DNA of 64,000 nucleotides from Sneathiella limimaris (GTDB taxonomy: Bacteria > Pseudomonadota > Alphaproteobacteria > Sneathiellales > Sneathiellaceae). The stretch covers positions 496,001-560,000 of the forward strand of contig NZ_JABBYJ010000001.1 in assembly GCF_012932565.1 (NCBI RefSeq), read 5' to 3'. Every line of letters starts with the position of its first letter. Position 1 is the stretch's first letter. The position numbers were made by a program, and so were the translations under genes. The notes beneath the pieces are model-generated. The model saw nothing but the letters and a program-made list of their open reading frames with translations, did not search any database and was not told the origin of the DNA. Positions 2,669 to 25,858 of the stretch are shown here, piece after piece.

Positions 2669-2908
2669 TTATTCGGCATGTTGGTAAACAGGTAAGAAGG
2701 ACAGAACGCCCTGAATTCCCCGAATATCCTCTGCCGTGTCCAGCAATAGCCCCTCTGATGGAGCATCGATAACAACCACTATTTTCCCCATCTCATCCAA
2801 TGCCGGAATTTCTGCAAACTCAGTTCGCTCAATGATTTCTTTCACATGATTAAATTCTTCACGTTGGACGTGAGCGATATAGCTCGCGATAAAAAGTGGT
2901 TCACTCAT
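2669..2908 (-). CDS. napD: NapD, Tat chaperone for periplasmic nitrate reductase
   Basis: A 79-residue protein of NapD size and pattern: a short alpha/beta ferredoxin-like fold with GKIVVVIDA in the middle and GVLSFLPVYQHAE at the end, matching the family's GVLxxxLVYHxxE tail. NapD binds the NapA twin-arginine signal before export (family knowledge). I chose the start at MSEPLFIAS because it follows GGAGGGGCGAC and overlaps the napF stop by 8 bases, which implies coupled translation. Its usual client NapA survives only as a signal peptide plus C-terminus, so the chaperone is left with a decoy or no client. Confidence 0.9.
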   Translation of the reverse strand: MSEPLFIASYIAHVQREEFNHVKEIIERTEFAEIPALDEMGKIVVVIDAPSEGLLLDTAEDIRGIQGVLSFLPVYQHAE

Positions 2909-3476
2909 GTCGCCCCTCCTCGTTGGATGCCCGGAAGACTTGTTGTTCACAGTCCTTGTTCCAATCAATGTGAATAGCGTCTACTGGACAGGGCGCGACA
3001 CAGGCACCACAAGCGGTACAGTCATCAGAATTAATTGTTGGTAACGCTGAACCACCCAAGGTTGCTGGAAAGGAAATGGCTTCTTCTGGACATTGATCCT
3101 TGCAAACCTCGCAGGTAATTCCCTGACCTGATAAGCAAGCTTGACCAGCAACCGCCACCCCATCCCAGGGGTCTTTAGTTTCCCGCTGTTCTTTTTCCCA
3201 AAAAACAGGTTCCGGGCAGCTATCTGCACAAGCACCACAAAAAACACATTCACCTTTGTCAAAATCGACTGTGGCTTTTTGGCTTCTGGAAATTGTGATG
3301 ATATTTTCAGAACATTCAGAAATGCATAGCCCACACCCAGTGCAAGCGGTTTCAATAACAAAACTATCCGCCCATGGAAGTCGAATGATACATGGATCAG
3401 GCATATCTGCTTTTGCAGGGGCGGATCGAAACAACAATTCCCGGCGTGATAGCGGTTTTTCTGAAAGATCTGGCAT
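2901..3476 (-). CDS. napF: NapF, iron-sulfur maturation protein of the nap system
   Basis: A 191-residue cytoplasmic ferredoxin-type protein. It has 4Fe-4S motifs: CTGCGLCISEC, CVFCGACADSCPEP, CEVCKDQCPEEAI and CTACGACVAPCPVDAI. The N-terminus SRRELLFRSAP is typical of NapF, which helps mature NapA. The start at MPDLSEKP lies 4 bases after the napE stop; a longer reading would swallow napE. It overlaps napD. It appears intact although its target enzyme is deleted. Confidence 0.9.
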   Translation of the reverse strand: MPDLSEKPLSRRELLFRSAPAKADMPDPCIIRLPWADSFVIETACTGCGLCISECSENIITISRSQKATVDFDKGECVFCGACADSCPEPVFWEKEQRETKDPWDGVAVAGQACLSGQGITCEVCKDQCPEEAISFPATLGGSALPTINSDDCTACGACVAPCPVDAIHIDWNKDCEQQVFRASNEEGRHE

Positions 3477-3480
3477 GGTC

Positions 3481-3648
3481 CTAGCCTGTAGGGGGACCTG
3501 CAAGGATTTGATACATCCAGATACTGAAACCATAGCCCCCAACCAATACAATAGTCAGTCCCGGTATCAGGATTGCTGTTAAAAACAAAAATAATAAGAT
3601 TTCATGCTTTCGGCCGGCCTTTGCATCTCCGGCTTCTTCCTCAGACAT
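3481..3648 (-). CDS. napE: NapE, small membrane protein of the nap operon
   Basis: A 55-residue single-span membrane protein. A charged N-terminus (MSEEEAGDAKAGRKHE) precedes a hydrophobic segment (ILLFLFLTAILIPGLTIVLV) and the GGYGFSIWMYQILAGPPG-like end typical of NapE. GAGGG lies a few bases before the ATG. It is the first gene of the napE-F-D-(A/C remnant) run and sits 152 bases downstream of nnrS. NapE's precise role is not established. Confidence 0.85.
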   Translation of the reverse strand: MSEEEAGDAKAGRKHEILLFLFLTAILIPGLTIVLVGGYGFSIWMYQILAGPPTG

Positions 3649-3800: not shown

Positions 3801-4985
3801 TCAAACTATTTGTTTTGGCTTTAGGAGATATCTCCCATAGACGATGGAAAACCCGACAAAACCAACGGCCCAAAAAGCACCCGAAAACGTTATTAACCAG
3901 GTCATACTCTCTGGAAACAATGCACAAATTACTCTTGAAATAGCAGCAATGACGACCGCAGCATAAAGGACAACATCGGTTGGTTTCATGACTAACGGCT
4001 TCCCTGTATGGCCCTTACTGGCCCGCATCATTACAGCGAGGATCATGCCGCCTACAGCACCGGTTCCCAGCGCATGTATCCCTACTACAGGCAATAATTT
4101 ATCAGGATATAGGATAGAGAGCCCGATCAGCAGAAATCCAACGGGAATGAATAAATAGCTAATGTGCAAAATGAGAACCAATGGCTCTGCGAACGTTCTC
4201 CCCCCAGCCCAACGAGCTAATTGAACAAATAACAGTACAGACGCAGCCAAAAACCCATACCCAACCAATTCCTGTTCAGGCAGCAGGATCCATCCAACCA
4301 TCGTGACCATTGAAGCCATAAGATTTATCTTTTCAAAAAGACTAAAGGGAGCAGGTAATCGACCAGGATTAAACTTAACCAGCCAGTTTCGTGTGAAACT
4401 TGGAATTATCCTGCCACCGATAATAAGGATAAAGGCAATGATAGCGACAAGTGCCATTCTTCTACTGTAATCGGCAATTCCGCCAATACTTGCTTCCAGA
4501 TGAAAGAGAAGATTTGAGCTGAGCAATACGCTGAGCGGTACCAAGACCTTCAAGTTGCGCCAGTTCTGACCTCTAACAATTTCTCTCGCGACAACCAACC
4601 ATAAGACAAACAGAAACATGCAATCCAGAATAGTTGCCGCTATCCATCCGATCTGTACTGAGTAAGTTACCGCCAACCTACCAACCAGCCACAGAAGAGA
4701 CAAAAGCAATAGAGGGAAACCCTGTACGGGCAGTCTGCCTGTCCAATTAGGTACAGCAGTTAGCAGAAATCCGCAGATAACAGCTGCTGCGAAACCAAAC
4801 AGCATTTCATGGATATGCCAATCGACGGGCGCAAATGTTGAAGAGATTTCAAGATGCCCCATAAATAAGGGTATCCAAAGTAGCACTGAAGCCCCCGCAT
4901 ATATCGAAGCAATCATAAAAAATGGACGAAAGCCAAAGGAAAAAATTGCAGGTCCAGCATAATCTTTACGGGGGTTTCCAAGCAT
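3801..4985 (-). CDS. nnrS: NnrS family heme/copper membrane protein
   Basis: A 394-residue polytopic membrane protein with about 12 hydrophobic segments. It has NnrS hallmarks: FSFGFRPFFMIASIYAG at the N-terminus, DWHIHEMLFGFAAAVICGFLLTAVPNWTG, GGRIIPSFTRNW, HALGTGAVGGMILAVMMRASKGHTG. The conserved His residues are presumed heme/copper ligands. NnrS proteins accompany denitrification genes and protect against nitric oxide stress (family knowledge). ATG at 4985 has GGAG at good spacing; GTG 4994 and ATG 4991 are alternatives. It lies 45 bases after the cupredoxin gene and appears fully intact. Confidence 0.9.
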   Translation of the reverse strand: MLGNPRKDYAGPAIFSFGFRPFFMIASIYAGASVLLWIPLFMGHLEISSTFAPVDWHIHEMLFGFAAAVICGFLLTAVPNWTGRLPVQGFPLLLLSLLWLVGRLAVTYSVQIGWIAATILDCMFLFVLWLVVAREIVRGQNWRNLKVLVPLSVLLSSNLLFHLEASIGGIADYSRRMALVAIIAFILIIGGRIIPSFTRNWLVKFNPGRLPAPFSLFEKINLMASMVTMVGWILLPEQELVGYGFLAASVLLFVQLARWAGGRTFAEPLVLILHISYLFIPVGFLLIGLSILYPDKLLPVVGIHALGTGAVGGMILAVMMRASKGHTGKPLVMKPTDVVLYAAVVIAAISRVICALFPESMTWLITFSGAFWAVGFVGFSIVYGRYLLKPKQIV

Positions 4986-5030
4986 ATCCATCACTCCATC
5001 TGCTTCATCAGCATCACAATTATCGATGAC

Positions 5031-5474
5031 CTAATTCAGATCTTCAGCAGCCTTGAATAATTCTTCAAAAAGTTTTCTGGCTTTGGGTGGGTTCTTGGCT
5101 TTTTTAGCCTGCTCAGTATTTTGAGGAGTTCCCACTGAAATCAGAGCAACCATTCCCATAGGATAGTGTGGGCTGCATTTGACGCCGTAAAATCCCTCCT
5201 CCTTGGCCTCCAGAACAAACTCTTCGTTATAAGCACTCTTAAATTTCTCTACCCCTTCAGGCAGCATTCCTTTGATGGACTGAACATTGTGCCCTTTGTC
5301 TGCTGGGATAAACCGGATAACATCACCGACCTCAGCTTTCACAAAGTCCGGCTCAAAAACCATCACTCCTTTTTCACCGCGATTTAGCATTTTTACTTCA
5401 TATTCTGCTGCTTGAACTGCTGAGATTGTCATTCCGACAACAAGCAATGTGATGATGTACGCGACAATTTTCAT
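5031..5474 (-). CDS. Pseudoazurin-like type I copper protein
   Basis: A 147-residue periplasmic cupredoxin with a signal peptide (MKIVAYIITLLVVG...AVQAA). The blue-copper ligands are visible: His in KGHNVQS and the Cys-His-Met set in KCSPHYPMGM. Pseudoazurins donate electrons to nitrite and nitrous oxide reductases. The Lys-rich tail (QAKKAKNPPKARKLFEEL) is usual for the family. The start is set at MKIVAY because GGAGAATTC sits just upstream. It lies between apbE/nosX and nnrS in the same direction and is intact, though its likely nos partner enzyme is destroyed here. Confidence 0.88.
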   Translation of the reverse strand: MKIVAYIITLLVVGMTISAVQAAEYEVKMLNRGEKGVMVFEPDFVKAEVGDVIRFIPADKGHNVQSIKGMLPEGVEKFKSAYNEEFVLEAKEEGFYGVKCSPHYPMGMVALISVGTPQNTEQAKKAKNPPKARKLFEELFKAAEDLN

Positions 5475-5551
5475 TTTGAATTCTCCACATTCCGTTTGTA
5501 TTGACTGAAACATCAGATACCATCGCGGTCGAACCTGAACTCATAAGAAAG

Positions 5552-6562
5552 CTATGAAAACCAATTCGTGCCTTCTGAGCCTGATGAATAATATACAGCG
5601 TCAACCTGCTGAGACCGGGCAAGCAAACGCTCCCTTTCCGTCGGCGTCATAAGCGACAGGGCTGTAGAATACATGTCGGCTATCATCGCTCGTTTGGATA
5701 CAACAGATATCGAGCCTTTCGCGCGTGACCACTCACCGGTTTTTGGATTGAGCAGATGATTGGCACCGGTCTTCCCTGCGAATGGGCTGGCATAGGTACC
5801 CGAAGTAGCAACCGACTGATCGGTAAGCGGGATAATCAAATTGGAGATACTGTCCCCACCCTCTCCTGCCTCAAGTCCAACACGCCACGGCTTCCTTTCC
5901 GATTTTGGTCCAATAGCGGCCACTTCACCCAATGACAGCAGAACGTGTTTAAACCCAGCAGACTGTAAGACTGATTTGATATGATCCGTAATATACCCTT
6001 GAGCGATCCCATTTAAGGTGATCGCCATGCCAGGTTTCTTAAAGGCAATCCGGCTTGGGGACAGATCTAGATCCTGATAGCCAACCGTTTTCAGCACTTG
6101 CTGAATGTCTTCCTTCAGAGGCTTCTTCTTCCTATTCCCAGATTTAGCGTAATAATCTGCATAAAACTGCCAAAGTGGTTGCACTGTAACATCAAACACT
6201 CCATCGGTTTGCTGAGCGAATGATTGTGCAGATGACAGAAGTTCCAGAAACTGGAAATCCGGGTTCTCGAGTGCCCCTGTTTCATTCAAACGGCTCAGTG
6301 CCGAGTGAGGCCGATAGAGACTAAACAGGTTTTCTAATCGCTCAATTTCCTGTTCGCAATGCAAGAGTACTGAGCGAGCCTTTTCCGGATCTGTGTGGTG
6401 CAACTGAATTACACCCTCAGCACCAAGTGCCGACCCAGTCCAGCGAACAGTCTGCTCTTTCGCCGCCGCACTAGAAAAGGGCAATAGAGAAGTCGCACAA
6501 GAAGCCGACGCCATAATCAGAAACGACCTTCGAGAGGCCTTACTTGTGATGTGTGATTGCAT
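5552..6562 (-). CDS. nosX: ApbE/NosX family FAD:protein FMN transferase
   Basis: A 336-residue exported flavin transferase with a twin-arginine signal (ASRRSFLIMASASCA). ApbE features are SLYRPHSALSRLN, GVFDVTVQPLW, ITLNGIAQGYITDHI, LLSLGEVAAIGPK and ADMYSTALSLM near the end. In nos clusters this protein (NosX) flavinylates NosR, needed for N2O reductase activity. It lies 14 bases after the nos chimera, so it is in the same operon. The fold appears complete. nosR is not in this window, so its substrate here is unknown. Confidence 0.9.
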   Translation of the reverse strand: MQSHITSKASRRSFLIMASASCATSLLPFSSAAAKEQTVRWTGSALGAEGVIQLHHTDPEKARSVLLHCEQEIERLENLFSLYRPHSALSRLNETGALENPDFQFLELLSSAQSFAQQTDGVFDVTVQPLWQFYADYYAKSGNRKKKPLKEDIQQVLKTVGYQDLDLSPSRIAFKKPGMAITLNGIAQGYITDHIKSVLQSAGFKHVLLSLGEVAAIGPKSERKPWRVGLEAGEGGDSISNLIIPLTDQSVATSGTYASPFAGKTGANHLLNPKTGEWSRAKGSISVVSKRAMIADMYSTALSLMTPTERERLLARSQQVDAVYYSSGSEGTNWFS

Positions 6563-6576
6563 GTCTTAGGCTCCTC

Positions 6577-8697
6577 TTACTCACGAGTTAGGGCGACAGG
6601 GGGCATATGCGCCAAGTCCAAGTCTTCGTTGGTAATTTCCCCAAGCCGAACAACCCGGCCGCCATATTGATCAGCAAAGTTCTCGGCGGGTTCCAGCTCG
6701 CTGAATGGGACAAACTCGGGCATTCCCATCCCCCCAGGCTTACGGCTTCCAACCACAAAAAATGCTTCCTGTATGTCGATCCAAATCCCAACATTCTGGG
6801 GTTTCTCCCAGCTTTCGGCTTTCCCCATGTCATGGACATATGTCACAACGGCATCTTGGGCCTCACCCGGTAAGGTTAGATATGTAATCGCATCTTTTAC
6901 AGAACTGAACCATTGCGGTTTTGATCTATGCTTCTCAAAAACCTGGGCTTTTGGGCCTGAATGCTCTGCAAGCAGCATTCCGCAATAAGTCCCAACAGTT
7001 TCATTCGTCAGCGCCAGAGGCTCTGGCAAAACTTCCAGGTTCTCCTGGCAAGCGCTTAAGGAGAAGCCAAAAATCATAGAAATGATTACTATAAGTGACT
7101 TCCCTCTCCGATCCATGTGCATGTAGGCACCAAAAATTTCCTCAAGGCTTGGGTCAGTTATCCGAATATCATTGAGCTGAATACCAAGCGCATAGATGCT
7201 GTTTAATATTGGGATCTTACGGGCCTGCTCACAATGTATGACCAGATGTCTCTGGGTTGTTCTTTGAACATTCAGGTCATGGGCAAAAACGGTTTTGATT
7301 TGATCACAGGCTTCAGGCGTTGCCTCAATAACGATTTTTGAATGAACGGCTAGCTGTTGAGTCAGACCCGCCATGGTGCCATCTCCAACAACACGACCAG
7401 AATTAAGGATCACCGCCCGGTCAACGCGATCATCAATCTCAGTAAGAACATGTGAGGAAATCAAAATAGATGTTCCTTTTTGCTTTTCTTCCCCAAGAAT
7501 ATGATAAATTTTTTGCCGAGCCATAGGATCCAGACCAGAGGTTGGCTCGTCCAAGATGAGGAACTCCGGCTCACCCAGCAAGGCTTGAGCCAATCCAAGT
7601 TTTTGCCGCATTCCCTTCGAATAAGTTGAAATTCGGTAGTCAGCCGCGGCTTCAAGTTCAAATTTCTCAAAGAGCTCGTTTACTTGAGCTTGGGGTGCAT
7701 CTTTTAGCTTGGCATAAAAAAGTAGCACTTCTCTTCCTGTCATGTTTTTCTGAAAGAGAATTTGTTCCGGTAAAAATCCGATATGCTGTCGCGACTTCTT
7801 AAAGTGGCGTTTTTGAACATCGGCACCCATAACATGAACCATGCCGCGTGTTGGGGATATCAGCCCCAACAAAATCTTGATCAGGGTACTTTTTCCGGCA
7901 CCATTATGACCGACCAGAGCTAAGCACTCTCCCCGGTTCAAAGTTAAGGTTACATCCTGCAACGCTTTAAGATCACCAAAGTTCTTTGAAATTCCAAGAG
8001 GCCATGCAACCTTCATTTTCTCACCATCAACCGCGGAAAATACAGCGTGATATTTTGACGGATCATCTAAAACAGAGCCATCGTTCGGCAGCGGCACCCG
8101 ATGTTCGCCGTTAGCGAAAATATACTTGGTTTTCGGGTATTTTTGTGGCCGCATTCCGTGAATATCGGCTGCATTGGGGATAGAAATAATTTTGTCTACC
8201 TTCATAATATCACAGCGGATTCGAGCAATCCGGGTATTCGCTTTATCATTGACCCAGATATAACGGCCATCATAGGTTCCGTTCGTAAAAGACATATGAG
8301 GATGATGAGTATCGCCATTAAGCGGAAAACCGCCTTTGTCCTTCCAGAATTCCTTTTCCTTAGGAAGCATATTCTCGGTGAGGATCTTTATACTTTCATC
8401 TGTCTGACCCCAACCAGTTGCACTACAGCGATTAAAAACAGGGATCCTCATCAATTCCCGCATGGAGGGTATACCTAAAATCCGTACTTCGCCGGACTGC
8501 CCTCCACTCCAAAAACCGTAATATTCGTCAAGATCACCAGGTGCTACTTCTGCATTTCCCTTAGCAGCGTGGGCAATACGCGGCGAAGCCATAAAGGCCG
8601 TCGTCCCTCCAAGCGCCCCCAGACCCGCAACAGCGGCTGAACCACTCAATAATGAACGCCGGGAGACGTCTGCAATTTTCTCTGAATCGTCTTTCAT
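6577..8697 (-). CDS. Chimeric remnant: NosZ N-terminus + NosF ATPase + NosL
   Basis: One 706-residue ORF made of three nos genes. Residues 1-232 are the N-terminal third of N2O reductase NosZ: Tat signal SRRSLLSG, then DEYYGFWSGGQSGE and the CuZ-ligand region DTHHPHMSF. Residues 233-526 are almost all of the ABC ATPase NosF: GHNGAGKST at 263, signature YSKGMRQK, Walker B LILDEPTSGLDP. Residues 527-706 are NosL, the copper lipoprotein, with its lipobox Cys at 550. Most of nosZ, all nosD and all nosY are missing, yet both joins are in frame. NosL could be made alone from ATG 7116 (MDRRGKSL...). The start follows TTAGGAG. It cannot reduce N2O because CuA and most CuZ ligands are absent. Confidence 0.88.
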   Translation of the reverse strand: MKDDSEKIADVSRRSLLSGSAAVAGLGALGGTTAFMASPRIAHAAKGNAEVAPGDLDEYYGFWSGGQSGEVRILGIPSMRELMRIPVFNRCSATGWGQTDESIKILTENMLPKEKEFWKDKGGFPLNGDTHHPHMSFTNGTYDGRYIWVNDKANTRIARIRCDIMKVDKIISIPNAADIHGMRPQKYPKTKYIFANGEHRVPLPNDGSVLDDPSKYHAVFSAVDGEKMKVAWPLGISKNFGDLKALQDVTLTLNRGECLALVGHNGAGKSTLIKILLGLISPTRGMVHVMGADVQKRHFKKSRQHIGFLPEQILFQKNMTGREVLLFYAKLKDAPQAQVNELFEKFELEAAADYRISTYSKGMRQKLGLAQALLGEPEFLILDEPTSGLDPMARQKIYHILGEEKQKGTSILISSHVLTEIDDRVDRAVILNSGRVVGDGTMAGLTQQLAVHSKIVIEATPEACDQIKTVFAHDLNVQRTTQRHLVIHCEQARKIPILNSIYALGIQLNDIRITDPSLEEIFGAYMHMDRRGKSLIVIISMIFGFSLSACQENLEVLPEPLALTNETVGTYCGMLLAEHSGPKAQVFEKHRSKPQWFSSVKDAITYLTLPGEAQDAVVTYVHDMGKAESWEKPQNVGIWIDIQEAFFVVGSRKPGGMGMPEFVPFSELEPAENFADQYGGRVVRLGEITNEDLDLAHMPPVALTRE

Positions 8698-8860
8698 TTT
8701 CTTTCTCCTAATAAGAAACAGTCGGATAAACAATGTCATCCTAATAAATCCCATTTACCAAGTTAATTTGAACAGCGCATACCCCTGAATTTTCGGAAGG
8801 AGTATTTCGCTTATTAAAATTTTGTTGGAATGGACCTTAGTCGGGATCTGAACATCGTTA

Positions 8861-8876
8861 TTTGCGCTTTCGCAAA
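8861..8876. promoter_or_regulatory. Palindrome of CRP/FNR-family operator size
   Basis: TTTGCG-CTTT-CGCAAA is a perfect 6-bp inverted repeat with a 4-base spacer, about 165 bases before the nos chimera start. The geometry matches operators of the CRP/FNR superfamily that control denitrification genes, but the half-site is not the FNR consensus TTGAT. It may be the surviving control site of the old nos operon, or chance. Confidence 0.3.
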
Positions 8877-10745: not shown

Positions 10746-10796
10746 ATGGCTGATAATATTGTAGCTATTACATCTTTTTTATGTGAGAGCAGCGTT

Positions 10797-11156
10797 ATGA
10801 CACGACAGCAGCAGGCAGTAGACATGGATGATAAAGCCATCCTCGCCAAAGCCGCCAAGAATGCAGCCTCCAATCTGGGGATCCCACTTGAGGAACTGGC
10901 CAAGATCATTGGACGGGACCGGACAGCCATCAATCGCGGTATTGACCCTGCAACCAAGGCTGGGGAGCTGGCTCTTCTCTTTGTCCGCTGCTATCGCGCC
11001 CTGCATACCCTGGTCGGTGGGGATCCGAAAAACATGAAACACTGGTTTGGAACACGCAACAAGCATCTGAACGGTGTTCCAAGAGAGCTTGTAAAGTCCG
11101 TACAAGGACTGAATAGCGTCCTCATTTACCTGGACGGCATGCGTGGAAAGATCTGA
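10797..11156 (+). CDS. Xre/MbcA/ParS-type antitoxin of a RES toxin
   Basis: A 119-residue protein with an N-terminal helix-turn-helix (GIPLEELAKIIGRDRTAINRG) and a C-terminal toxin-binding domain (DUF2384-like): LLFVRCYRALHTLVGGDPKNM followed by WFGTRNKHLNGVPRELV. The family neutralises RES-domain toxins and autorepresses the operon. It overlaps the downstream RES gene by 14 bases, as expected of a coupled pair. An upstream ATG at 10746 would add 17 residues; MTRQQQAV (10797) looks more natural, but neither has a strong RBS. Confidence 0.8.
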   Translation: MTRQQQAVDMDDKAILAKAAKNAASNLGIPLEELAKIIGRDRTAINRGIDPATKAGELALLFVRCYRALHTLVGGDPKNMKHWFGTRNKHLNGVPRELVKSVQGLNSVLIYLDGMRGKI

Positions 11157-11892
11157 GTGGAAAGAGGTTCTGAGCCAAGCTCAACCCGAAACCCTCAGGG
11201 GCCTCTTGTGGCGGGTTGTTGAGGACCAGTCAGAGATCGCCACCATGGAGCTGGTTGAAACTCTCGATGAGCAAATGCGGCTTGAAGAGTTACTGGATGC
11301 GACCAAACCTTCCTATCCAGAAACGGCGCCGGATGATTACTTACTGGCCACCCCATTCAGATACCCTCCCTTAAAATGGGGATCGCGTTTTGGGGCCCGA
11401 CATGAAATGTCCATCTTCTATGGATCTCTCCTGCAGGAAACAGCGGCGGCAGAACTGGCCTATTATCGGTTCGTATTTTTAGAAGGAGTTGAGGAGGCGT
11501 TCCCCAATCCGGTGATCCGGGCAAGCTATGATCTCTTTTCGGCCCGATTCAAGTGTGAGCCTGGTCTCGATCTGACCAAAGAGCCCTTTACCGCCTATGC
11601 AGACACCCTGCAACACAAAGCCAACTATCAGCCAACCAAGGCGCTCGGCAGTGAGCTAAGAGCAGCCGAGATCCAGGGGATTAGCTATCAGTCCGCGCGC
11701 TGCCCCAAAGCCGGGTTAAATGTCGCCATTTTTGAGCCAGCAGGGTTAATCTCCAAAAAGCCTGTTCAACTGCTCAAATGCTATTGTGAGGCCACACGAA
11801 GCCGGGTGGGCCTTAAACTTGATCGAACCCAATTCCTGGAATTTCCACGGGATCTGTTTTTGCTGGATGGAAACCTTCCTGAACCAGCTTGA
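11143..11892 (+). CDS. RES-domain toxin (NAD+-degrading type)
   Basis: A 249-residue protein with the RES family layout. It has an Arg in GSRFGARHEMSIFYGS, a Glu in AAAELAYYRFVF and a Ser in ISYQSARCPKAG; these three conserved polar residues name the family. RES toxins studied elsewhere deplete NAD+ (family knowledge). At 249 residues with an N-terminal extension it is longer than minimal RES proteins. The start is a GTG inside the antitoxin gene. A terminator follows at about 11988. The pair appears intact. Confidence 0.82.
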   Translation: MERSEWKEVLSQAQPETLRGLLWRVVEDQSEIATMELVETLDEQMRLEELLDATKPSYPETAPDDYLLATPFRYPPLKWGSRFGARHEMSIFYGSLLQETAAAELAYYRFVFLEGVEEAFPNPVIRASYDLFSARFKCEPGLDLTKEPFTAYADTLQHKANYQPTKALGSELRAAEIQGISYQSARCPKAGLNVAIFEPAGLISKKPVQLLKCYCEATRSRVGLKLDRTQFLEFPRDLFLLDGNLPEPA

Positions 11893-13115: not shown

Positions 13116-13282
13116 TTCACCCTGTCCTTGCAAATACAAAATGAATATAGTGCTCCTCTTCCAAAAGAGCAGGGAAAATCGACAGTCAGGAACCGACAAA
13201 CGGCTGCAACAGAGGCGATCCGTGCCCCCACGCTTGACTTCTGGTGGGGCCGCTCTAGGTGAAGCCTCAAAGGAAGGTTCCG

Positions 13283-14293
13283 ATGCCTAAAGACCGCATC
13301 CAGAAGGGGGAGCCAACCGCACCCGAGCCCAAGGGGTGCCGTCCCGCTCTTGCGGCCCTTCCGCCCTCGCTCGAGCCCGCCTTGAAGCGCGCCCGCCGCT
13401 ATCTGAAAGCGGCCCATGCGGATACCACCCAACAAGCCTATCACGAGGACTGGACGGCTTACGAGGCCTGGTGTGCGGCGCAAGGCCTGGCGCCGATTTC
13501 CGACGGGCCCGGCGAGCCGCTGGTCGGGCTGTATCTCTCGGACGCCGCCGACCATCTGGCGCCAACCACCCTCAACCGCCGCATCTTTGGCATTGCCGAT
13601 GGCTTTTACGCCCGCGGCCGCTCCTTTGATCCGCATCATCCGCTGCTCCGCCAGGTCATGGACGGGATCTACCGCCTCGAGGGTCGCCCGGTAGCGGCGC
13701 GGAGCCCGCTCTCTTATGAGGAGCTCGCCGCCATGGTGGGTACTCTTAAGACCAACCTTCGGGATCGCCGCGATGCCGCGATATTATTGGTCGGCTTCTT
13801 TGGCGCCTTTCGCCGCAGTGAACTCTCGGCTCTCGCCGTCGCCGATCTCAGCTTTCGAGCGGAGTCTCTAAAAATCGTCATCCGCCGCGCCAAGAACGAT
13901 GCCAAGCGCCTCGGCCAGACCAAGATCCTGCCGCGCGAGACAGATCCCGCGCTCTGTCCGGTTTCCGCATTGGACATTTGGCTGAAAGACGCCCAGATTG
14001 ACGAGGGGGCCGTCTTTAGAGGTATCGATCGCTTTGAGCGGGTCGCCAAGACGGCCCTCACCCCCCGCTCCATCGCCCGCCTGGTCAAAAGCCGCTACCA
14101 GGCGATGCTGAAAGCAAAAGGTCATCCGGACGCTGATATTGCCGAAAGGAGCCAGCTGATCAGCGCCCATAGCCTTAGAAGCGGCTATATCACCCGGGCC
14201 GGCCTCAAGGGCGACAGCCTCTGGCAAATCCGCGCCCGATCCGGCCATAAAACCCTAGAAGGAGTATCGCGCTATATCCATATAACCGACTGA
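13283..14293 (+). CDS. Tyrosine recombinase/integrase, G+C-rich
   Basis: A 336-residue phage-integrase-family recombinase. The SAM-like core-binding domain covers residues about 25-125 (TTQQAYHEDWTAYEAWCA). The catalytic domain has Arg in GFFGAFRRSELSAL, Lys in IRRAKNDAKR, HxxR in SAHSLRSGYITR, His in RSGHKTLEG and Tyr in SRYIH. All catalytic residues are present. The start follows AGGAAGG. Base composition is clearly richer in G+C than the chromosome around it, suggesting recent acquisition. The MbcA-like genes are on its left and an ISL3 element on its right. Confidence 0.88.
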   Translation: MPKDRIQKGEPTAPEPKGCRPALAALPPSLEPALKRARRYLKAAHADTTQQAYHEDWTAYEAWCAAQGLAPISDGPGEPLVGLYLSDAADHLAPTTLNRRIFGIADGFYARGRSFDPHHPLLRQVMDGIYRLEGRPVAARSPLSYEELAAMVGTLKTNLRDRRDAAILLVGFFGAFRRSELSALAVADLSFRAESLKIVIRRAKNDAKRLGQTKILPRETDPALCPVSALDIWLKDAQIDEGAVFRGIDRFERVAKTALTPRSIARLVKSRYQAMLKAKGHPDADIAERSQLISAHSLRSGYITRAGLKGDSLWQIRARSGHKTLEGVSRYIHITD

Positions 14294-14339
14294 CTGACAG
14301 CCCCCGTCCCGGCACTTGTCAATTTTGGGTGGTTTTTTC

Positions 14340-14373
14340 CACGAGTCCGCTAATCCTATTTATCGGACTCGTG
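14340..14373. repeat. Inverted repeat just after the recombinase
   Basis: A 10-bp perfect inverted repeat, CACGAGTCCG (14340-14349) and CGGACTCGTG (14364-14373), with a 14-base loop. It is flanked by a second imperfect complementary pair, TTTTGGG near 14323 and CCCCCAAAA near 14374. It may be the recombinase's terminator or a recombination site; the sequence alone does not decide. Confidence 0.45.
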
Positions 14374-14503
14374 CCCCCAAAACCGGCAGAATTCCAGACC
14401 CTTCCGACGATGCGCCTTTACCGCACCGGGAGGGCAAAACCACCTGATTTTTCATCTGCGGGGCTCCCGGGTTTCGGAGCCATCTAATCTTAACTTCCAC
14501 ATA

Positions 14504-14533
14504 CAAAAAAACCCGCCCCCAGCGGGACGGGTT
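14504..14533 (-). terminator. Terminator downstream of the ISL3 transposase
   Basis: On the minus strand AACCCG (14533-14528) pairs with CGGGTT (14515-14510), with further C/G pairing inside, and is followed by a run of T's (A-run at 14505-14510 on the plus strand). It lies about 20 bases after the transposase stop. Confidence 0.6.
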
Positions 14534-14553
14534 ATTTGGTGCTTTCCAAAGGT

Positions 14554-15801
14554 TTATTGGAATTTCTCTGGCCATAAAAGAGTTGCAATCGACAGGGCGC
14601 TCAATTGATCGGTGGCTTCCAAAAGTCCCGTCGGTCGGTGGGACGGCAAAGGCAATTCACCGTCCCGAGCCTTTACCGGTCGCACCCAGATTGCAGAATT
14701 CTCTACCGGGACATGATCCCAAAGCGGCTGACGACGCTTTGGTGGTTTGGTAGGAATGCGCCCAAACGCCAAGCGGGCCTCATAGCTATGTTCTGCCCTC
14801 GCCCGCTCAATCAAGTCCTCCAAGGTCCGAACACCGCCTACAGCAACAATTTCCTTGATGCGCCGGTTATACGCTTCTGCGGGCGCGTTGGTCAGGCGAC
14901 AGGGGAAATAGGCACAGATCAAATCCAGATATTTTTTTACGGTCCGACCAACCGACCGAAACGCGGTCCCAACCGGTCCTTTTACCGGCAGAAAATCCAG
15001 CCACCGCAGCAGGGCCCGGCGCGCGTCCTGTGGTGAGAGGTCCATTTCAAACAGTTCAAAAAAGACCCGTCTGAGCTCATAGGCCTGATGTAGATCCGGG
15101 AAGCGGACAAGCCATTCCACCATCTCGCGTTTTTCTGAATCATTCAGGTTTTTAGGCGGTCGTTTCATATAGTTTCGAGCACGATGAAAACTCTGCCGCT
15201 CTTTGCGAAGTTTAAAACGTTGGTCAATTGCGACTTTTTCAAAAGCAGCTGTCACCAAATTAAGCACATGGAATTTGTCAGCAACCACAACAGCGTTAGG
15301 GCACGCCTGATAAGCCGCGCTAATCAGGGTCTGTGATAAATCCAGCGTCACATATTGCACCGCGTCACAATCAAGAGTCTGGCGAAACAGTCGAACCGCA
15401 TCTGCCCGCGTTGTCCCCGCCACCATATTCAGAAATCCGGTATCTCGTATTCCTCGCTGAAAGGCATCTTCAGTGTATCCTTCCCCCGATAAAACCAAAT
15501 GCCCCTTTAAAGCTTTACGGCCCTTTTCAACCTCGTAGGTACGCGTAGCTGAGAGATCATCGATCCGAACAATCCTTGGATTGAGCCGTCTCGGCTCGTC
15601 AAAGGACTGACTGGATTGTACTGAGTTCTCGATGGATTTCAGCCGATGACGCGACACGCCTGTCATGTTACTCAAAACTGTCAAGCCGACCAAATGCCGA
15701 TATTTGCCAACAAACTCGGCCAGTGTATTGGTGCAGCTCAGCTCGCTGGAAATTCCGGGAACTTTTGCTTTTGCATAATGAGTAAACTGATCAATGGACA
15801 T
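14554..15801 (-). CDS. ISL3 family transposase, catalytic part
   Basis: A 415-residue DDE transposase of ISL3 type. It has a Thr-Leu-Asp in VQYVTLDLSQTL, an Asp in VVVADKFHVLNL and a downstream Asn/Glu region SCRLTNAPAEAYNRRIKEI-like (near residues 306-322, with the catalytic Glu in PAEAYN). The start MSIDQFTHYAK lies 11 bases inside the upstream frame and is preceded by AAAGGAGCACAGA, a strong RBS. It lacks the N-terminal zinc-binding domain, which is encoded in the other frame. It looks otherwise full length. Confidence 0.85.
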   Translation of the reverse strand: MSIDQFTHYAKAKVPGISSELSCTNTLAEFVGKYRHLVGLTVLSNMTGVSRHRLKSIENSVQSSQSFDEPRRLNPRIVRIDDLSATRTYEVEKGRKALKGHLVLSGEGYTEDAFQRGIRDTGFLNMVAGTTRADAVRLFRQTLDCDAVQYVTLDLSQTLISAAYQACPNAVVVADKFHVLNLVTAAFEKVAIDQRFKLRKERQSFHRARNYMKRPPKNLNDSEKREMVEWLVRFPDLHQAYELRRVFFELFEMDLSPQDARRALLRWLDFLPVKGPVGTAFRSVGRTVKKYLDLICAYFPCRLTNAPAEAYNRRIKEIVAVGGVRTLEDLIERARAEHSYEARLAFGRIPTKPPKRRQPLWDHVPVENSAIWVRPVKARDGELPLPSHRPTGLLEATDQLSALSIATLLWPEKFQ

Positions 15802-16066
15802 TCTGTGCTCCTTTGCTCAGACAATTGCAACGGAAACCATGCCATTTCACCTGGAGTTCAGCAGGGTAAGCGCCAATCGGCATATCGTTAATGGTTCTCG
15901 GTCGCCAACGATGTTTGTGCATGGGACGTTCGCAATTGGGACAGTCGGGCCAATGGGTGGTCTCGGCCTCGTAGATCCAGACCTTTCTGGAATGATCAAA
16001 CTCAGGGCCAGGCGCATATCTCAATCCAGAGATTGAGTGTTGATTTTCAATTACATTAAAACGCAT
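15791..16066 (-). CDS. ISL3 transposase N-terminal zinc-binding domain in a separate frame
   Basis: A 91-residue ORF that matches the N-terminal DNA-binding region of ISL3 transposases. It has CPNCERPMHKH, then WRPRTINDMPIGAYPAEL and WHGFRCNCLSKG, the usual Cys pairs plus the R-x-R-x-x-D-x-P-like linker. It ends with TGA overlapping the start of the catalytic frame. In most ISL3 elements these are one protein, so this is either a frameshift mutation, a programmed frameshift or a two-protein arrangement with coupled translation. Confidence 0.7.
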   Translation of the reverse strand: MRFNVIENQHSISGLRYAPGPEFDHSRKVWIYEAETTHWPDCPNCERPMHKHRWRPRTINDMPIGAYPAELQVKWHGFRCNCLSKGAQNVH

Positions 16067-16437: not shown

Positions 16438-17580
16438 ATGACCCTCCGCCTGATACACACGTCTGATTGGCAGATTGGCAAGGTTTTTCGCTTTGTCAGT
16501 AACGGAACTATGGGATTACTTCAAGAGGCACGTCTGGCGGCGATAACCCGATTGGGTGAACAGGCGGTAGAGCACGGTGCCTGTCATGTTCTCGTTGCTG
16601 GTGATGTTTACGACATGGAGGCATTGTCGCCGCGCTCTCTCAATCAGCCGCTCGAACGCATGCGGAAATTTGAGAAGGTGATGTGGCATCTAATGCCCGG
16701 AAACCATGACCCCAACCGTCCGCACGGTCTTTGGGATCAGCTCTTGCGTAGGGGCGTGCCGGACAATGTGATTGTTCACGTTGACTCAGAGCCACGGATT
16801 TTCGAAAGCGACGGCTTTGCCGTGCTTCCGGCTCCGCTCCAATATAAGCGCACGCTTCAGGACCCTACGGCGTACATGGATGAGGTAGATGTCCCTGACG
16901 GGTTTATCCGCATCGGGCTCGCGCATGGGACGGTCACTGGTTTCGGTTCTGATGACAAGGACGTTCCGAACTACATCAACCCGGACAGGCCGCAATCGGC
17001 AGGGCTTGCGTATCTGGCTCTGGGCGATTGGCACGGGCAAAAAAAGATCAACAATAGGGTTTGGTATAGCGGCACACACGAGACTGATGCGTTTGATGTC
17101 GATGGCGGCGGACAGGCGCTTCTTGTCGAGATTGAGAATGCTGCTGCCCTCCCAGTCGTTAGCCCGTTAGACACCGGTCATTATCGGTGGAAGACCTACC
17201 GCAAGCAGATTAACACCCGCGAGGATATCAACGCCCTTGCCACGACCCTGCGCGGCAGTGGCGATGACTTGAACCGGATTCTGGTACGCCTTTACGTCGA
17301 GGGGGCGGTCTCGCTTCAGGATCGGCAATATTTTGAAGAGCAGATAGTAGAGCAGGTCTCTGCTGCCTTCTGTTATCTCAGAGTGGATGATACCCGTCTT
17401 TTCCCAAGCCCGAGCGAAGAGGATCTAGATCAGATCGATCGGGGCGGGTTTGTACGAGCCGCCGCCGATGCTCTGAAGCAGAAGTCCGATGATACAAGCG
17501 ATCCGGATCGCGAGATTGCCGCGCTGGCGCTCCAGAGGCTGTATGTCGAGCACATGAAATTGCAGACGAGGAGCCAATGA
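16438..17580 (+). CDS. SbcD/Mre11/YhaO-like metallophosphoesterase nuclease
   Basis: A 380-residue calcineurin-like phosphoesterase. Motifs: HTSDWQIGK (residues 7-15), VAGDVYD (53-59), MPGNHDPN (87-93), LAHGTVTG (161-168), LGDWHGQKK (195-203). The first motif has Gln where SbcD has His, a variant I recall from YhaO-like members. With the overlapping downstream ATPase it should form an Mre11-Rad50-like DNA-end nuclease. The ATG has GGGAG upstream. Stop and next start overlap by 4 bases. Base composition is richer in G+C than the core genes. A defence role is inferred from the island setting. Confidence 0.8.
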   Translation: MTLRLIHTSDWQIGKVFRFVSNGTMGLLQEARLAAITRLGEQAVEHGACHVLVAGDVYDMEALSPRSLNQPLERMRKFEKVMWHLMPGNHDPNRPHGLWDQLLRRGVPDNVIVHVDSEPRIFESDGFAVLPAPLQYKRTLQDPTAYMDEVDVPDGFIRIGLAHGTVTGFGSDDKDVPNYINPDRPQSAGLAYLALGDWHGQKKINNRVWYSGTHETDAFDVDGGGQALLVEIENAAALPVVSPLDTGHYRWKTYRKQINTREDINALATTLRGSGDDLNRILVRLYVEGAVSLQDRQYFEEQIVEQVSAAFCYLRVDDTRLFPSPSEEDLDQIDRGGFVRAAADALKQKSDDTSDPDREIAALALQRLYVEHMKLQTRSQ

Positions 17581-20285
17581 AAATTCGCTCCATCGCTGTT
17601 AATCAGTTCAAGAAGTTCACGACGCCGATGTGTCTTGATGATATCGGCGACGGATTGAATGTCATTGTTGGCCCCAATGAGATGGGGAAGTCAACGCTGC
17701 TTGACGCGCTGCGTGCCTCGCTATTTGAGAAGTACAGCTCGAAGGCGCAACCGATTACGGCACTACAGAATGACCGAAACCAGGCCGCGCCCGTCGTCGA
17801 GCTGGCGTTTGAGGTCGATGACGGAATTTATCGGATCAGAAAGCGCTTCGTTAAAAAGCCGTACGCTCATCTGTTCTGTCCGGACGGGCGAAAGCTGGAG
17901 GGCGATGAAGCAGAGGACACACTTCGTGACCTTCTCGGGTTCGATGAGCCCGGTAAGTCGGGCGCCAAACCCGAAACCCTGGGCATGTGGAATGTGCTCT
18001 GGGTTCAGCAAGGCCAATCCTTCGGCGCGCTCGATCTTCCCGATAGCGCGCGTTCAAACCTCCACAGCGCATTGGAATCGGAAGTCGGTGAGGTTCTGGG
18101 GGGCAGGCGCGGCAGAGCCTTACCCGACGCGGTAGACAAGCAGCTCTCCGAGCTTGTCACCTTAACTGGCAGGCCACGAGGTGACTATAAGGAACTGATC
18201 GATGGAATTGATTCCCTGCGCGCCGAACTTGAAGGGCTGCGAACCCGCCGAAGCGATCTTTCGACCACCTTGGAGAACCTCGAAGCAGCGCAGGAGACAC
18301 TCGCCCGCCTTTCGTCGGGAGAACACGATCAGACGGACAAGGAGAACCTCGACGCGGCTCGAACCCGGCATGCCGAACTCGCCAAATTAGAATCTCGTAT
18401 CGATGCAGCGGTGACCGAAGTTGAGCTGAAAAAGCGAAATCTGGAACAGGCCGAGCAGGTCCTCACTGCGCGCCGCGATCTCAAGAAACAAATCGAAATG
18501 GAAAGCGAAGCCGTCGAGGCGGCGAAGAAAAAGCTCGACGAGGTACGCCAAACCGAACAGGACTTGCGAAAGCAGGTCGAAAAGCTTCGTAACGCTACGA
18601 AGGATGCAGAGAATGCTGTAACCGAGGCAGACAATGCCGTCTCACAGGCACGCCGCGTTCTCAACGTCGTCCAACGCGACTCTCGAATTCGCGAACTTCA
18701 GGGGCGCTACGACAAAGCGCACGCGGCTGAAAAAAAACAACGGGCTGCGCTACAGGGTGCGGCAGCCATTCTCGTAACAGACGAGAATCTCAAAGCGATA
18801 CGAGATGCAGCCAAGGAACTCGAAACTGCTCGTTCGCGCCTCTCCGCTGCTGCGACACTCGTTACGTTCGATATGGCTTCCGACCCATTGTCCAAAATCG
18901 AAGTCAATGATGCTCCGCTTACCGCCGACCAGGCTTCGGTTGAAGCGGTCGAGCCGACGACGATCACTATCCCAGACTACGGGAGTATTACTGTTCAGCC
19001 CGCTATCAAGGACCGCGACAAGCTGATCGAACAGCAGCGCGCGGGGAATCAAGCTCTCAAGGCTGCGCTTGAAGACTGCGGCGTCAAGTCGGTCGATGAA
19101 GCCGAGAAGGAGCTTACCAAGCGCGAAAAGCTGCTTCGGGATGCCGAACTTGCAAAGCAGGAAGCTGAGCTGCACGCGCCGGCAACAGACGACTACGACG
19201 CCGGCGCGGAACCTCTTGCCGACCACATTGCGGGCATGAAGGCAATCCTTGAAAGGGAGCTCAACGATCTTGGGATCGATGCCTTACCGACGGAGAAGGA
19301 GGCGGAGCATGCCCTAACTTCTGCTCAGGATGCTGCGCAGGAAGCAAGAGACACGCTCACCGCCGCCCGTGCGAGCCTTGTCGGCCCAGAAGAAGAGATT
19401 GGCCGTATCCAGACCGACTTGGGTAGCGTCAGGACGCGATATGAAGACGGGAAGGAACGTCTCGAAAGACTGAAGAACGATCTGACCGAAGCCGAAAAAC
19501 AGACTTCCGACGACGATCTGGATTCCGCCATATCCGAAGCTCGAAAGGCCCTGGCCGATCAGGAAAATGCGGTCTCCTCGCTTGAAGAACAGCGCGAGGG
19601 CGAGACATTGCCACAACTGGAGGCGCGCATCTCAAGGCTGGAAAAGGCGCTCCAGGAGAGGCGTGACAAGCGCACCGATTTGAAAGAGAACATTGCCGGA
19701 TTCCGGTCACATATTGAAGCCCTTGAGGGAGCCGGTCTCGACGAGGCCATCCAGCAGCAAGAACGCGAGTTAGAACTGGCCGAAGAACAGCTTCGACGCT
19801 ACGAGCGTGAGGTCGCTATCCTCTCACTCCTTTTAACGACTCTACGTTCTGCCGAAACTGAAGCAAAAGAGCGCTATCTTTCCCCAGTGTTGAAGCGGGT
19901 TCGTCCATACCTGCAGCTCCTGTTCCCCGGCGCGGAGATCACCATCGACGAAAACCTACATATCGTCGGTGTTGTTCGGCAAGACGGTTATGAAGAGTCT
20001 TTCCAGCACCTTAGTATGGGAACGCAGGAGCAGATCGCCGTCCTCGTGCGTCTCGCCTTTGCAGAGATGCTTGTTGAACAGGGACATCCTGCAACCGTCG
20101 TTTTGGATGACGCGCTGGTATTTTCGGATGATCGCAGGATGGACCGCATGTTTGACATTCTGAACATGGTGGGGCAGCAAGTTCAGATTATTGTACTGAC
20201 GTGTCGTGAGCAGTTGTTTGAAGGCGTCGGAGGTAAACACCTTTCGCTGAAAGCCGTAAACACAGAAGAGCTAGTTTCAGCTTGA
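17577..20285 (+). CDS. SbcC/Rad50/YhaN-like coiled-coil ATPase
   Basis: A 902-residue SMC-like ATPase. Walker A GPNEMGKST is at 32-40, a long coiled coil covers about 190-770, the ABC signature LSMGTQEQ is at 812 and Walker B VVLDD is at 841. No CxxC zinc hook appears at the coil apex; the middle (about 425-480) instead has a short globular segment rich in acidic and Thr residues. The ATP-switch region reads IVLTCREQLF, with Cys replacing the usual His. YhaN-type proteins share these traits. It is translationally coupled to the nuclease gene upstream. Confidence 0.8.
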   Translation: MKIRSIAVNQFKKFTTPMCLDDIGDGLNVIVGPNEMGKSTLLDALRASLFEKYSSKAQPITALQNDRNQAAPVVELAFEVDDGIYRIRKRFVKKPYAHLFCPDGRKLEGDEAEDTLRDLLGFDEPGKSGAKPETLGMWNVLWVQQGQSFGALDLPDSARSNLHSALESEVGEVLGGRRGRALPDAVDKQLSELVTLTGRPRGDYKELIDGIDSLRAELEGLRTRRSDLSTTLENLEAAQETLARLSSGEHDQTDKENLDAARTRHAELAKLESRIDAAVTEVELKKRNLEQAEQVLTARRDLKKQIEMESEAVEAAKKKLDEVRQTEQDLRKQVEKLRNATKDAENAVTEADNAVSQARRVLNVVQRDSRIRELQGRYDKAHAAEKKQRAALQGAAAILVTDENLKAIRDAAKELETARSRLSAAATLVTFDMASDPLSKIEVNDAPLTADQASVEAVEPTTITIPDYGSITVQPAIKDRDKLIEQQRAGNQALKAALEDCGVKSVDEAEKELTKREKLLRDAELAKQEAELHAPATDDYDAGAEPLADHIAGMKAILERELNDLGIDALPTEKEAEHALTSAQDAAQEARDTLTAARASLVGPEEEIGRIQTDLGSVRTRYEDGKERLERLKNDLTEAEKQTSDDDLDSAISEARKALADQENAVSSLEEQREGETLPQLEARISRLEKALQERRDKRTDLKENIAGFRSHIEALEGAGLDEAIQQQERELELAEEQLRRYEREVAILSLLLTTLRSAETEAKERYLSPVLKRVRPYLQLLFPGAEITIDENLHIVGVVRQDGYEESFQHLSMGTQEQIAVLVRLAFAEMLVEQGHPATVVLDDALVFSDDRRMDRMFDILNMVGQQVQIIVLTCREQLFEGVGGKHLSLKAVNTEELVSA

Positions 20286-20402
20286 TCAAAATTCGGAAAA
20301 TGAGCTGTTCGCAAATTATGACTTAAACCAATCTCGAAAGTTCGTGGTGAAAGCAATGGCAACATTCTCAAGAACGCCCTTTAAAATACTAAGGCGGTCG
20401 AA

Positions 20403-24502: not shown

Positions 24503-25858
24503 TCAGCCGTAGACCAAGCTTGGCAACCAAGTAATAATCTCTGGAAAATACATACAGAGAGCGAGGCCCAGAAACTGCAATCCCAAAAATGGAAGTGCTG
24601 CCTTAAAGATATCGGACATGGGAATAGAGCTTGGTGCAACACCTCTCAGATAAAACAGTGCATATCCAAATGGAGGCGATAGAAAACTCATCTGCATGTT
24701 CACCAGATAGAGAACCCCGAACCACAAGACCAGATCGCCCGAACTATCCAAGCCAAAAGCGGCAGCCCCTAGTCCTTTAATAATAGGCACAAAAATTGGA
24801 ACGCAGAGAAGCAAAATTCCAACCCAGTCCAGAAACATACCCAGAATTATAAGCAGGATTTGCATCAGGATTAAAATGCCCCATGGTCCCAACCCGGTTG
24901 CTGCCAGGGATTCCGTTACAAAGGTCTGTCCCCCTTGCAACACATACAGGCCAACAAAGATTGTCGCGCCGAACATGATCCAAATCACCATGGAGGAGGC
25001 TTTGAGTGTCGTTATGACCGCTTCTCGCGCTGTTTTCCAATTTAATTGCCGATGAAGAGCCGCGACGATGAAAGCCCCAAATGTTCCGATGCCTGCAGCC
25101 TCAACCGGTGTCGCAGCACCTGAAAAGAGGACAGAGAAAACAACCAGGATCAAAATTATGGGTGCAGCCATTTGCCTCAAAAGCAAAAACTTTTCCCTAA
25201 CACTGATCCGCTCCTCAACAGGGATTGGAGGGCCTTTTGCAGGATCCAGGAACGACATGACCGACACATAAAGGATATAGAACCCGGACAGCATCAAGCC
25301 GGGGATTACGGCCCCGATAAACAGCTCTCCAACAGATTGCTCAGCAACTACCGCATAAATAATGGCCAAAATCGAAGGCGGGATCAAAATACCAAGCGTG
25401 CCGCCGGCCATAATAGAGCCCATCGCTATCTTGGTATCATAATTTCTAGCCAACATAGCTGGCAGCGCAATAATTCCCATGGTGACAACAGCTGCCCCAA
25501 TCACGCCAACCATGGCCGCAAGGATTGTAGAGGCAATAATTGTTGCGGACGCAAGGCCACCCTTCAACCCTCCAAGAAGCTTGTAGATAACATCAAACAT
25601 CTCCTTGATTAGTCCGGCTCTCTCCAGCATGGCAGCCATAAAGATGAACAAGGGGATCGCAGAAAGCTGATAATCCGTCATCAATGGGAAAATACGACTG
25701 GGCACTATGTTGAGCGTCTGAGCATCACCCAGAACAAACAAAAAGACACAGGCTAAGCCACCGGTAACAAAGGCAAGAGGTAACCCTGCCGCAAGAAGCA
25801 GCAACAAGCTGCCAAACATGATCAGGGTGAGCCAACCAATTTCAATTTCAAGACCCAT
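24503..25858 (-). CDS. dctM: TRAP transporter large permease subunit DctM
   Basis: A 451-residue membrane protein with about 12 spans of the DctM family. Typical stretches are PLFIFMAAMLERAGL, GGTLGILIPPSILAIIYAVV, ATPVEAAGIGTFGA and QMSFLSPPFGYALFYLRG. It is the ion-coupled channel of a tripartite periplasmic transporter. Its start overlaps the small subunit's stop by one base (TGATG). The solute is probably an organic acid; which one cannot be read from sequence. Confidence 0.92.
   Translation of the reverse strand: MGLEIEIGWLTLIMFGSLLLLLAAGLPLAFVTGGLACVFLFVLGDAQTLNIVPSRIFPLMTDYQLSAIPLFIFMAAMLERAGLIKEMFDVIYKLLGGLKGGLASATIIASTILAAMVGVIGAAVVTMGIIALPAMLARNYDTKIAMGSIMAGGTLGILIPPSILAIIYAVVAEQSVGELFIGAVIPGLMLSGFYILYVSVMSFLDPAKGPPIPVEERISVREKFLLLRQMAAPIILILVVFSVLFSGAATPVEAAGIGTFGAFIVAALHRQLNWKTAREAVITTLKASSMVIWIMFGATIFVGLYVLQGGQTFVTESLAATGLGPWGILILMQILLIILGMFLDWVGILLLCVPIFVPIIKGLGAAAFGLDSSGDLVLWFGVLYLVNMQMSFLSPPFGYALFYLRGVAPSSIPMSDIFKAALPFLGLQFLGLALCMYFPEIITWLPSLVYG

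Follow-up and report, generated by a model that had tools for sequence, protein, structure and literature searches.

In-frame remnants of neighbouring nos and nap operons in a Sneathiella genome

In the Sneathiella lineage represented by the 64,000-nucleotide stretch of S. limimaris DNA analysed here (the window), two neighbouring respiration operons appear to have been dismantled recently by six deletions, as read on a single genome assembly. The deletions would have removed NosR, most of NosZ, NosD, NosY, a crp/fnr-type regulator, most of NapA, NapB and the head of NapC. Core subunits are among the losses, and the strain should therefore be unable to make either N2O reductase or periplasmic nitrate reductase. 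The explanation that accounts best for these remains, given about an even chance of being correct, is that Nap and Nos were lost recently through illegitimate deletions, of which those that left translation uninterrupted persisted.

The nos remnant is a single open reading frame, nosZ'-'nosF-nosL (6577-8697; this and all other nos and nap features below lie on the minus strand), encoding 706 amino acids without an internal stop. It starts at the ATG at 8697 (another in-frame ATG lies upstream, at 8754) and stops at 6577. A previous sequence-only reading of this DNA had proposed such a frame, and three profile matches bear it out: TAT-dependent NosZ over residues 10-243 of the fused protein (profile positions 1-238 of 627), ABC ATPase over residues 246-387 (PF00005, 8.9e-36) and NosL over residues 560-691 (PF05573, 1.3e-40). 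Alignment to the intact proteins of relatives yields, in minus-strand order, NosZ residues 1-232, NosF from approximately codon 11 and then NosL, in agreement with that reading, as is the absence of a stop or frameshift at either join. (Its statement that all of NosL is present is nearly right; the NosL start codon and first few residues are gone.)

The NosZ segment (8002-8697, from alignment to relatives) carries the Tat motif RRSLL at 8661 and DTHHPH at 8313. The NosF segment (7102-8000, from sequence comparison) extends from about codon 11 of the gene in the relative G015 to near its end, and its Walker A, signature and Walker B motifs (GHNGAGKST, YSKGM and LILDEPT) are all intact; its partners NosY and NosD are both missing. 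The NosL segment (6577-7101) has a lipobox, LSAC, at 7059, preceded by in-frame ATGs at 7122 and 7116 that could start a lipoprotein signal. A functional clade I NosZ combines the propeller and a C-terminal CuA domain in one protein of ~630-650 residues and has nosR, nosD and nosY as accessory genes. In the fused frame, checked downstream of the NosZ head, the CuA domain and its motif are absent, the NosZ profile score is 348 bits against a cut-off of 625, and the three accessory genes find no match in the window's own genome (G000). A Tat-exported NosZ head followed by a cytoplasmic ATPase may fairly be predicted to be a topologically odd protein, as had been remarked.

What has been lost is defined by comparison with G015, a genome of the same genus in which a single 29-kb contig (G015:C48) carries, in order, nosR-Z-D-F-Y-L-apbE-crp(-)-pseudoazurin-nnrS-napF-D-A-B-C (most of these names being assigned from sequence and order). 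The window aligns with it as collinear blocks separated by six gaps on the window side, such that ~9.4 of 16.1 kb is missing: (1) the whole of nosR (~2.2-2.3 kb); (2) the C-terminal part of nosZ, nosD and the first ~10 codons of nosF (2,517 bases); (3) nosY (~0.9 kb); (4) the opposite-strand crp/fnr-type gene (~0.74-0.76 kb); (5) the middle of napA (2,221 bases); and (6) the tail of napA, napB and the head of napC (781 bases). The disappearance of about two thirds of nosZ and the whole of nosD and nosY, claimed from the sequence without a reference, is thus confirmed by the G015 gene order. The two deletions originally counted are both real; the total in the neighbourhood is six, including nosR, crp and two in nap. 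The closest named loci are those of S. chinensis and S. chungangensis, and comparison with S. chinensis gives the same gaps for the nos part and for crp.

The missing blocks were not found elsewhere in G000 when the 16-kb G015 locus was used as a DNA query: it gives eight matches, all of them kept blocks of this region, and napB is not found by the same search. (A DNA search of this kind is blind to diverged paralogues; a crp-family gene of 28% identity is present elsewhere in the compared part of G000.) Protein searches of G000 for NosR, NosD and NosY, run without a positive control, returned empty results, and protein search finds no second copy there of the NosZ head or of NapA. Programmed or reversible excision is disfavoured because the missing pieces are not found elsewhere in G000.

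The nap remnant is a second chimera, a 190-residue ORF (2055-2627) composed of the NapA Tat signal (residues ~1-29), the NapA C-terminus (NapA profile positions 768-829) and the C-terminus of NapC, which matches NapC/NirT and contains two CxxCH sites; both of its joins are in frame. A functional NapABC takes a full NapA and NapB, and at this locus the profile finds positions 769-828 of NapA alone. Among the matches listed, the NapA cut-off is passed by at least 5 genomes of the 24 in the genus, whose frames span 841-868 residues; G000 fails it, and the other long ORFs matched elsewhere in its genome score far lower.

The joins were placed by two-sided alignment, with homology counted as the bases that can be assigned to either side. 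Three can be placed closely: nosZ|nosF at 8000-8001 (0-2 bp of homology), napA|napA at 2541-2543 (~2 bp) and napA|napC at 2361-2362 (~1 bp). The others are placed only within ~10-100 bases because the relatives are ~70-80% identical: nosF|nosL lies within 7054-7102, the join left by excision of nosR within 8715-8813 and that left by excision of the crp/fnr-type gene within 5531-5542 (the last two also by alignment to relatives). Of the positions given in the sequence-only reading (near 8001 and 7117), the first therefore stands, and the second becomes a point somewhere in 7102-7054 rather than exactly 7117. All four of the in-gene joins, nosF|nosL included, keep the frame; the other two cuts, at nosR and crp, take out whole ORFs.

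Around the cuts, the upstream palindrome, apbE, pseudoazurin, nnrS, napF and napD are retained on the same strand. An ApbE-type FAD:protein FMN transferase in the position of NosX (5552-6562) is open, begins 14 nucleotides beyond the end of the fused ORF, and matches its NCBIfam profile below the curated cut-off. Next come pseudoazurin (5031-5513; open, above the curated cut-off, with the start that matches relatives at 5474), NnrS (3801-4994; open), a NapF-like ferredoxin (2901-3551; open, NCBIfam score just below the curated cut-off) and a NapD-like chaperone (2669-2968; open, NCBIfam score below the curated cut-off). Both G015 and S. chinensis have the crp/fnr-type gene where apbE meets pseudoazurin; its absence here leaves the whole block on one strand.

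The palindrome TTTGCGAAAGCGCAAA (8861-8876), upstream of the lost nosR, is a candidate operator. It is identical in G015 and differs by two bases in S. chinensis (in a global alignment with scattered gaps that was used for this upstream block only). The CRP/FNR-type FixK2 consensus TTGA/C-N6-T/GCAA, as given in PMC6710368, is matched by the core of the palindrome. The paper also lists putative FixK2 boxes, TTGCGCTATCGCAA being the one before nnrR, and states that NnrR has no defined consensus; assignment of the palindrome as an NnrR site was dropped on that account. The 14-base core TTGCGNNNNCGCAA has one match in the window against 0.19 expected, and the match is only suggestive because 16 of 100 shuffles also had at least one. 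G000 contains the 16-base form twice (and a backwards control pattern once), and its other copy lies in what reads as leuB-like coding sequence.

Elsewhere in the window, an Xre/MbcA/ParS-type antitoxin and an adjoining RES-domain protein (10746-11892, plus strand) are likely to be a toxin-antitoxin pair. A phage-type integrase adjoins an ISL3-family transposase (13259-16066), the latter in two overlapping frames, a zinc ribbon (15791-16066) and a DDE part (14554-15801). An SbcCD-like nuclease/ATPase pair and, after it, an AAA_13 protein (16438-22715, plus strand) lie beside an integrase-like ORF at 23281, and this region could be a defence-type island. A TRAP transporter DctQ subunit (25858-27078, minus strand) has an extra N-terminal TM2-like domain (its TM2 match falls below the Pfam cut-off), and the stretch between its TM2-like and DctQ parts looks coiled-coil.

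The remnants are open and co-directional and are followed by five open downstream genes, which suggests selection against deletions that break translation, that is, against polarity. Selection against polarity was one of three causes that the sequence-only reading had offered for its joins, and it is the one that fits best, short of proof, with four of four in-gene joins in frame and with apbE, pseudoazurin, nnrS, napF and napD open. Once the two enzymes were no longer needed, many deletions might arise, and the survivors would be those that keep ribosomes moving along the mRNA; out-of-frame cuts would expose the mRNA to Rho-dependent termination and starve the downstream genes. This frame filter is put together from the framing statistics and the known polarity of operons. 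It predicts that the downstream genes are still needed, for which the support so far is their open frames. Both chimeric proteins would be by-products, probably unstable and devoid of enzymatic function. NosF without NosD and NosY, and NosZ without CuA, should be incapable of their known roles.

The framing statistics come from a model of random cuts on the G015 map, in which a join is called tidy if both ends are intergenic or if it keeps the frame. Six tidy joins of six are produced with a probability of 7.2e-4 at the observed deletion lengths (three of which are estimates) and 5.3e-4 with lengths left free. Two of the in-frame joins came to notice through the long ORF that they made; without these two, the value is 0.008. 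The four in-frame joins alone have 1 chance in 81. The probabilities for tidy joins are suggestive only, because what counts as tidy was defined with the data already in view.

Plain luck is the main rival of the frame-keeping account: after disuse, ordinary neutral decay might have brought six deletions, with four in-gene joins in frame by accident and no time for stops or frameshifts to accumulate. No stop or frameshift, the marks by which a pseudogene in ordinary decay is recognised, is present in 2.7 kb of remnants (706 + 190 codons). Single changes creating a stop amount to 4.0% in nosZFL and 3.4% in napAC, and the probability that 2.7 kb would come through 30 neutral changes free of lesions is 0.021 (at an assumed indel:substitution ratio of 1:10).

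Non-synonymous distances in the remnants are low and synonymous sites are near saturation. Branch dN was compared between the window and a sister, with G011 as outgroup throughout and with G010, another genome of the genus, as sister for nos and G015 as sister for nap. Values for window/G010 are 0.025/0.009 for the nosZ head, 0.030/0.037 for nosF, 0.054/0.041 for nosL and 0.081/0.054 for the intact apbE; values for window/G015 are 0.011/0.023 for the napA remnant and 0.008/0.030 for the napC remnant. The nosZ head is the exception, its dN being raised 2-3x on the window branch (0.016-0.025 vs 0.006-0.009 in relatives). With the sisters exchanged, G015 and G011 give 0.093/0.046 for nosF and 0.116/0.087 for the intact apbE; G010 and G011 give 0.105/-0.006 and 0.072/0.051 for the two nap pieces, the nap genes of G010 being plainly more distant. 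For most remnants, then, conservation is similar to that in relatives. Either the deletions are young relative to the split from the relatives or their products remain under selection, and these substitution data fit both.

The remnants thus look young, as neutral decay would have it (some 30 neutral changes would already make the absence of lesions unlikely), a chance of 1 in 81 is not very small for a finding picked from a scan of many windows, and genomes of the genus often lack NosZ: a match is missing from 12 of 23 other genomes, 7 of the 12 being at least 90% complete. Neutral decay does not account comfortably for six large deletions without one small lesion in 2.7 kb, nor for six joins that are all tidy (P 5e-4 to 8e-3), and is judged possible rather than probable.

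To what extent the damage is confined to these operons was assessed by comparing 860 kb of G000, or roughly one fourth of it, with a 1.2-Mb part of G010. (A smaller preliminary run used a match limit of 55%.) In the G000 part, 274 of 1073 G010 ORFs are matched at >=60%; 263 of these are covered over >=85% of their length and 11 less. The 11 consist of five that are >=180 residues long and <70% covered, one of 463 residues (coverage 0.78, only its ends missing) and five of <170 residues. The five long partial ORFs are nosZ, napA, napC and those at 93938 and 200069, which are taken, from their sequence and overlap, to be putative antisense or spurious frames; the convincing long partial genes are thus nosZ, napA and napC. 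In the reverse direction, 317 of 776 G000 ORFs are matched and 312 are covered over >=85%; among the other five, only the fusion falls into two separate pieces. Generalized genome decay is accordingly not seen in the compared part, in a control that rests on coverage of matched ORFs and is blind to loss of whole genes. (A count of internal deletions, 0 in both directions, is insensitive because it missed the known napA and fusion cases.)

A possible third collapsed operon, nor, was considered and set aside: the COX1-family hit at C1:1653928 is a 122-residue ORF that reads as one piece. The corresponding membrane protein (L137, 1381-1749; G000:C1 near 1653928) resembles a piece of haem-copper oxidase subunit I. 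The COX1-family search found no NorB-like match in G000; it found two full-length family members, which are taken to be aerobic oxidases. Weaker long COX1-family matches in three genomes of the genus, G004, G006 and G017, could be NorB.

As to how the deletions arose, repeat-mediated recombination, the second of the causes offered previously, finds no support: a search for direct repeats at the three placeable joins gave 0-2 bp of homology (as judged from relatives 70-80% identical, so that short repeats that have since vanished could escape it). A Ku gene was not found in G000, and non-homologous end joining is rejected on that ground. With no Ku gene found and no repeats at the placeable joins, slippage or template switching at minimal homology is the likely route. 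The same two observations would suit a single complex replication accident, in which a stalled fork switched templates at microhomology, produced several or all of the deletions in one event and preserved the order and orientation of the segments; so would the occurrence of six apparently young deletions in one neighbourhood of a genome whose compared part shows no other convincing long partial gene. Such an accident leaves the frames unexplained, as it does the several cuts close to gene ends, and no intermediate is seen; it is considered unlikely.

Collapse in assembly, the third cause offered, is unlikely. An artefact of assembly or consensus, with intact operons in the real genome, would accord with the intact loci of the other nosZ-bearing genomes of the genus and with the fact that the support here is one assembly (the identical fused ORF at C1:502580-504697 of G000, in which the NosZ head is matched nowhere else, is not independent support because G000 is the window's own assembly). 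Against this, the assembly has three contigs and is rated 100% complete, 312 of the 317 matched ORFs in 860 kb align over >=85%, the convincing long partial genes are all Nap or Nos, and the placeable joins are free of repeats, the usual cause of collapse.

The fused frame stands alone among the loci sampled. A NosZ-head match is present in 11 of 23 other genomes of the genus, each in an open, full-length frame of 637-657 residues, and in 32 of 385 genomes of an even draw from the class (which includes G000, itself one of the 32). The frame downstream of the NosZ head was checked in 118 loci, some of them sharing a genome (the class matches G352 and G218, which had no locus, were left out): in 109 the frame continues to the CuA region at full length (recognised by pattern in 94 + 11 and by eye in 4 that have variant motifs), 7 run off a contig end, one stops early and one belongs to the window itself. 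The locus with the early stop (L210, G088:C56) has a NosZ head with one premature TAA, a point-mutation lesion or a sequencing error. None of the 110 other loci that could be judged has a similar fusion. Gonococci carry decayed nos genes. A literature search found nothing on nosZ pseudogenes formed by in-frame deletion, and, in titles and the beginnings of abstracts, nothing alike on Sneathiella, decay, polarity or nos decay.

That the chimeras are new working proteins under selection (for example NosF-NosL acting in copper handling behind a NosZ head that carries the Tat signal, or a small Tat-borne dihaem protein, NapA'-'NapC) is highly improbable, the intact ATPase and haem-binding motifs of the kept parts and the low dN notwithstanding. 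Youth explains low dN equally well, NosF is without NosD and NosY and NosZ without CuA, and none of the other judged loci has such a fusion. From what is known of these families, moreover, neither an ATPase placed after a Tat signal nor a lipobox in the middle of a protein would be expected to function.

Loss by deletions filtered for translation can be thought of, tentatively and with a sizeable minority chance of being right, as frame-keeping dismantling of operons: as a disused respiratory locus of several operons is reduced by illegitimate deletions, whether one after another or together, only those would survive that leave one unbroken translated transcript, no classical pseudogene would form, and the window would be a young snapshot of the process. 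If the framing is selected, this is a direct test of transcription-translation polarity shaping the death of operons. Whether a bacterium is able to respire nitrate, or to remove the greenhouse gas N2O, depends on its having kept or lost Nap and Nos. Remnants kept in frame may be annotated automatically as NosZ, NosF, NosL, NapA or NapC, and a survey that targets 5' nosZ might list the strain among N2O reducers.

The intact counterparts are the nosRZDFYLX operons of S. chinensis LMG23452 (L024) and G015, with which the window shares the order and strand of the kept pieces, the upstream block and apbE-pseudoazurin-nnrS, and from which it differs in lacking nosR, about two thirds of nosZ, nosD and nosY and in having nosZ', nosF and nosL in one frame. 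From the napFDABC operon of G015 it keeps napF and napD in the same place beside nnrS, and it differs in lacking the napA core, napB and the head of napC, the remains being the one 190-residue ORF. Ordinary denitrification pseudogenes, with their stops and frameshifts (the premature TAA in NosZ of G088 is an example), share the end result, enzyme loss; the window, in contrast, shows large deletions alone, with the frame kept and no stop or frameshift. Gene fusion by deletion is familiar in operons, where loss of intervening DNA joins two coding regions, normally two complete domains in one working protein. In the window, by comparison, the partners so joined are mostly truncated or without their complex.
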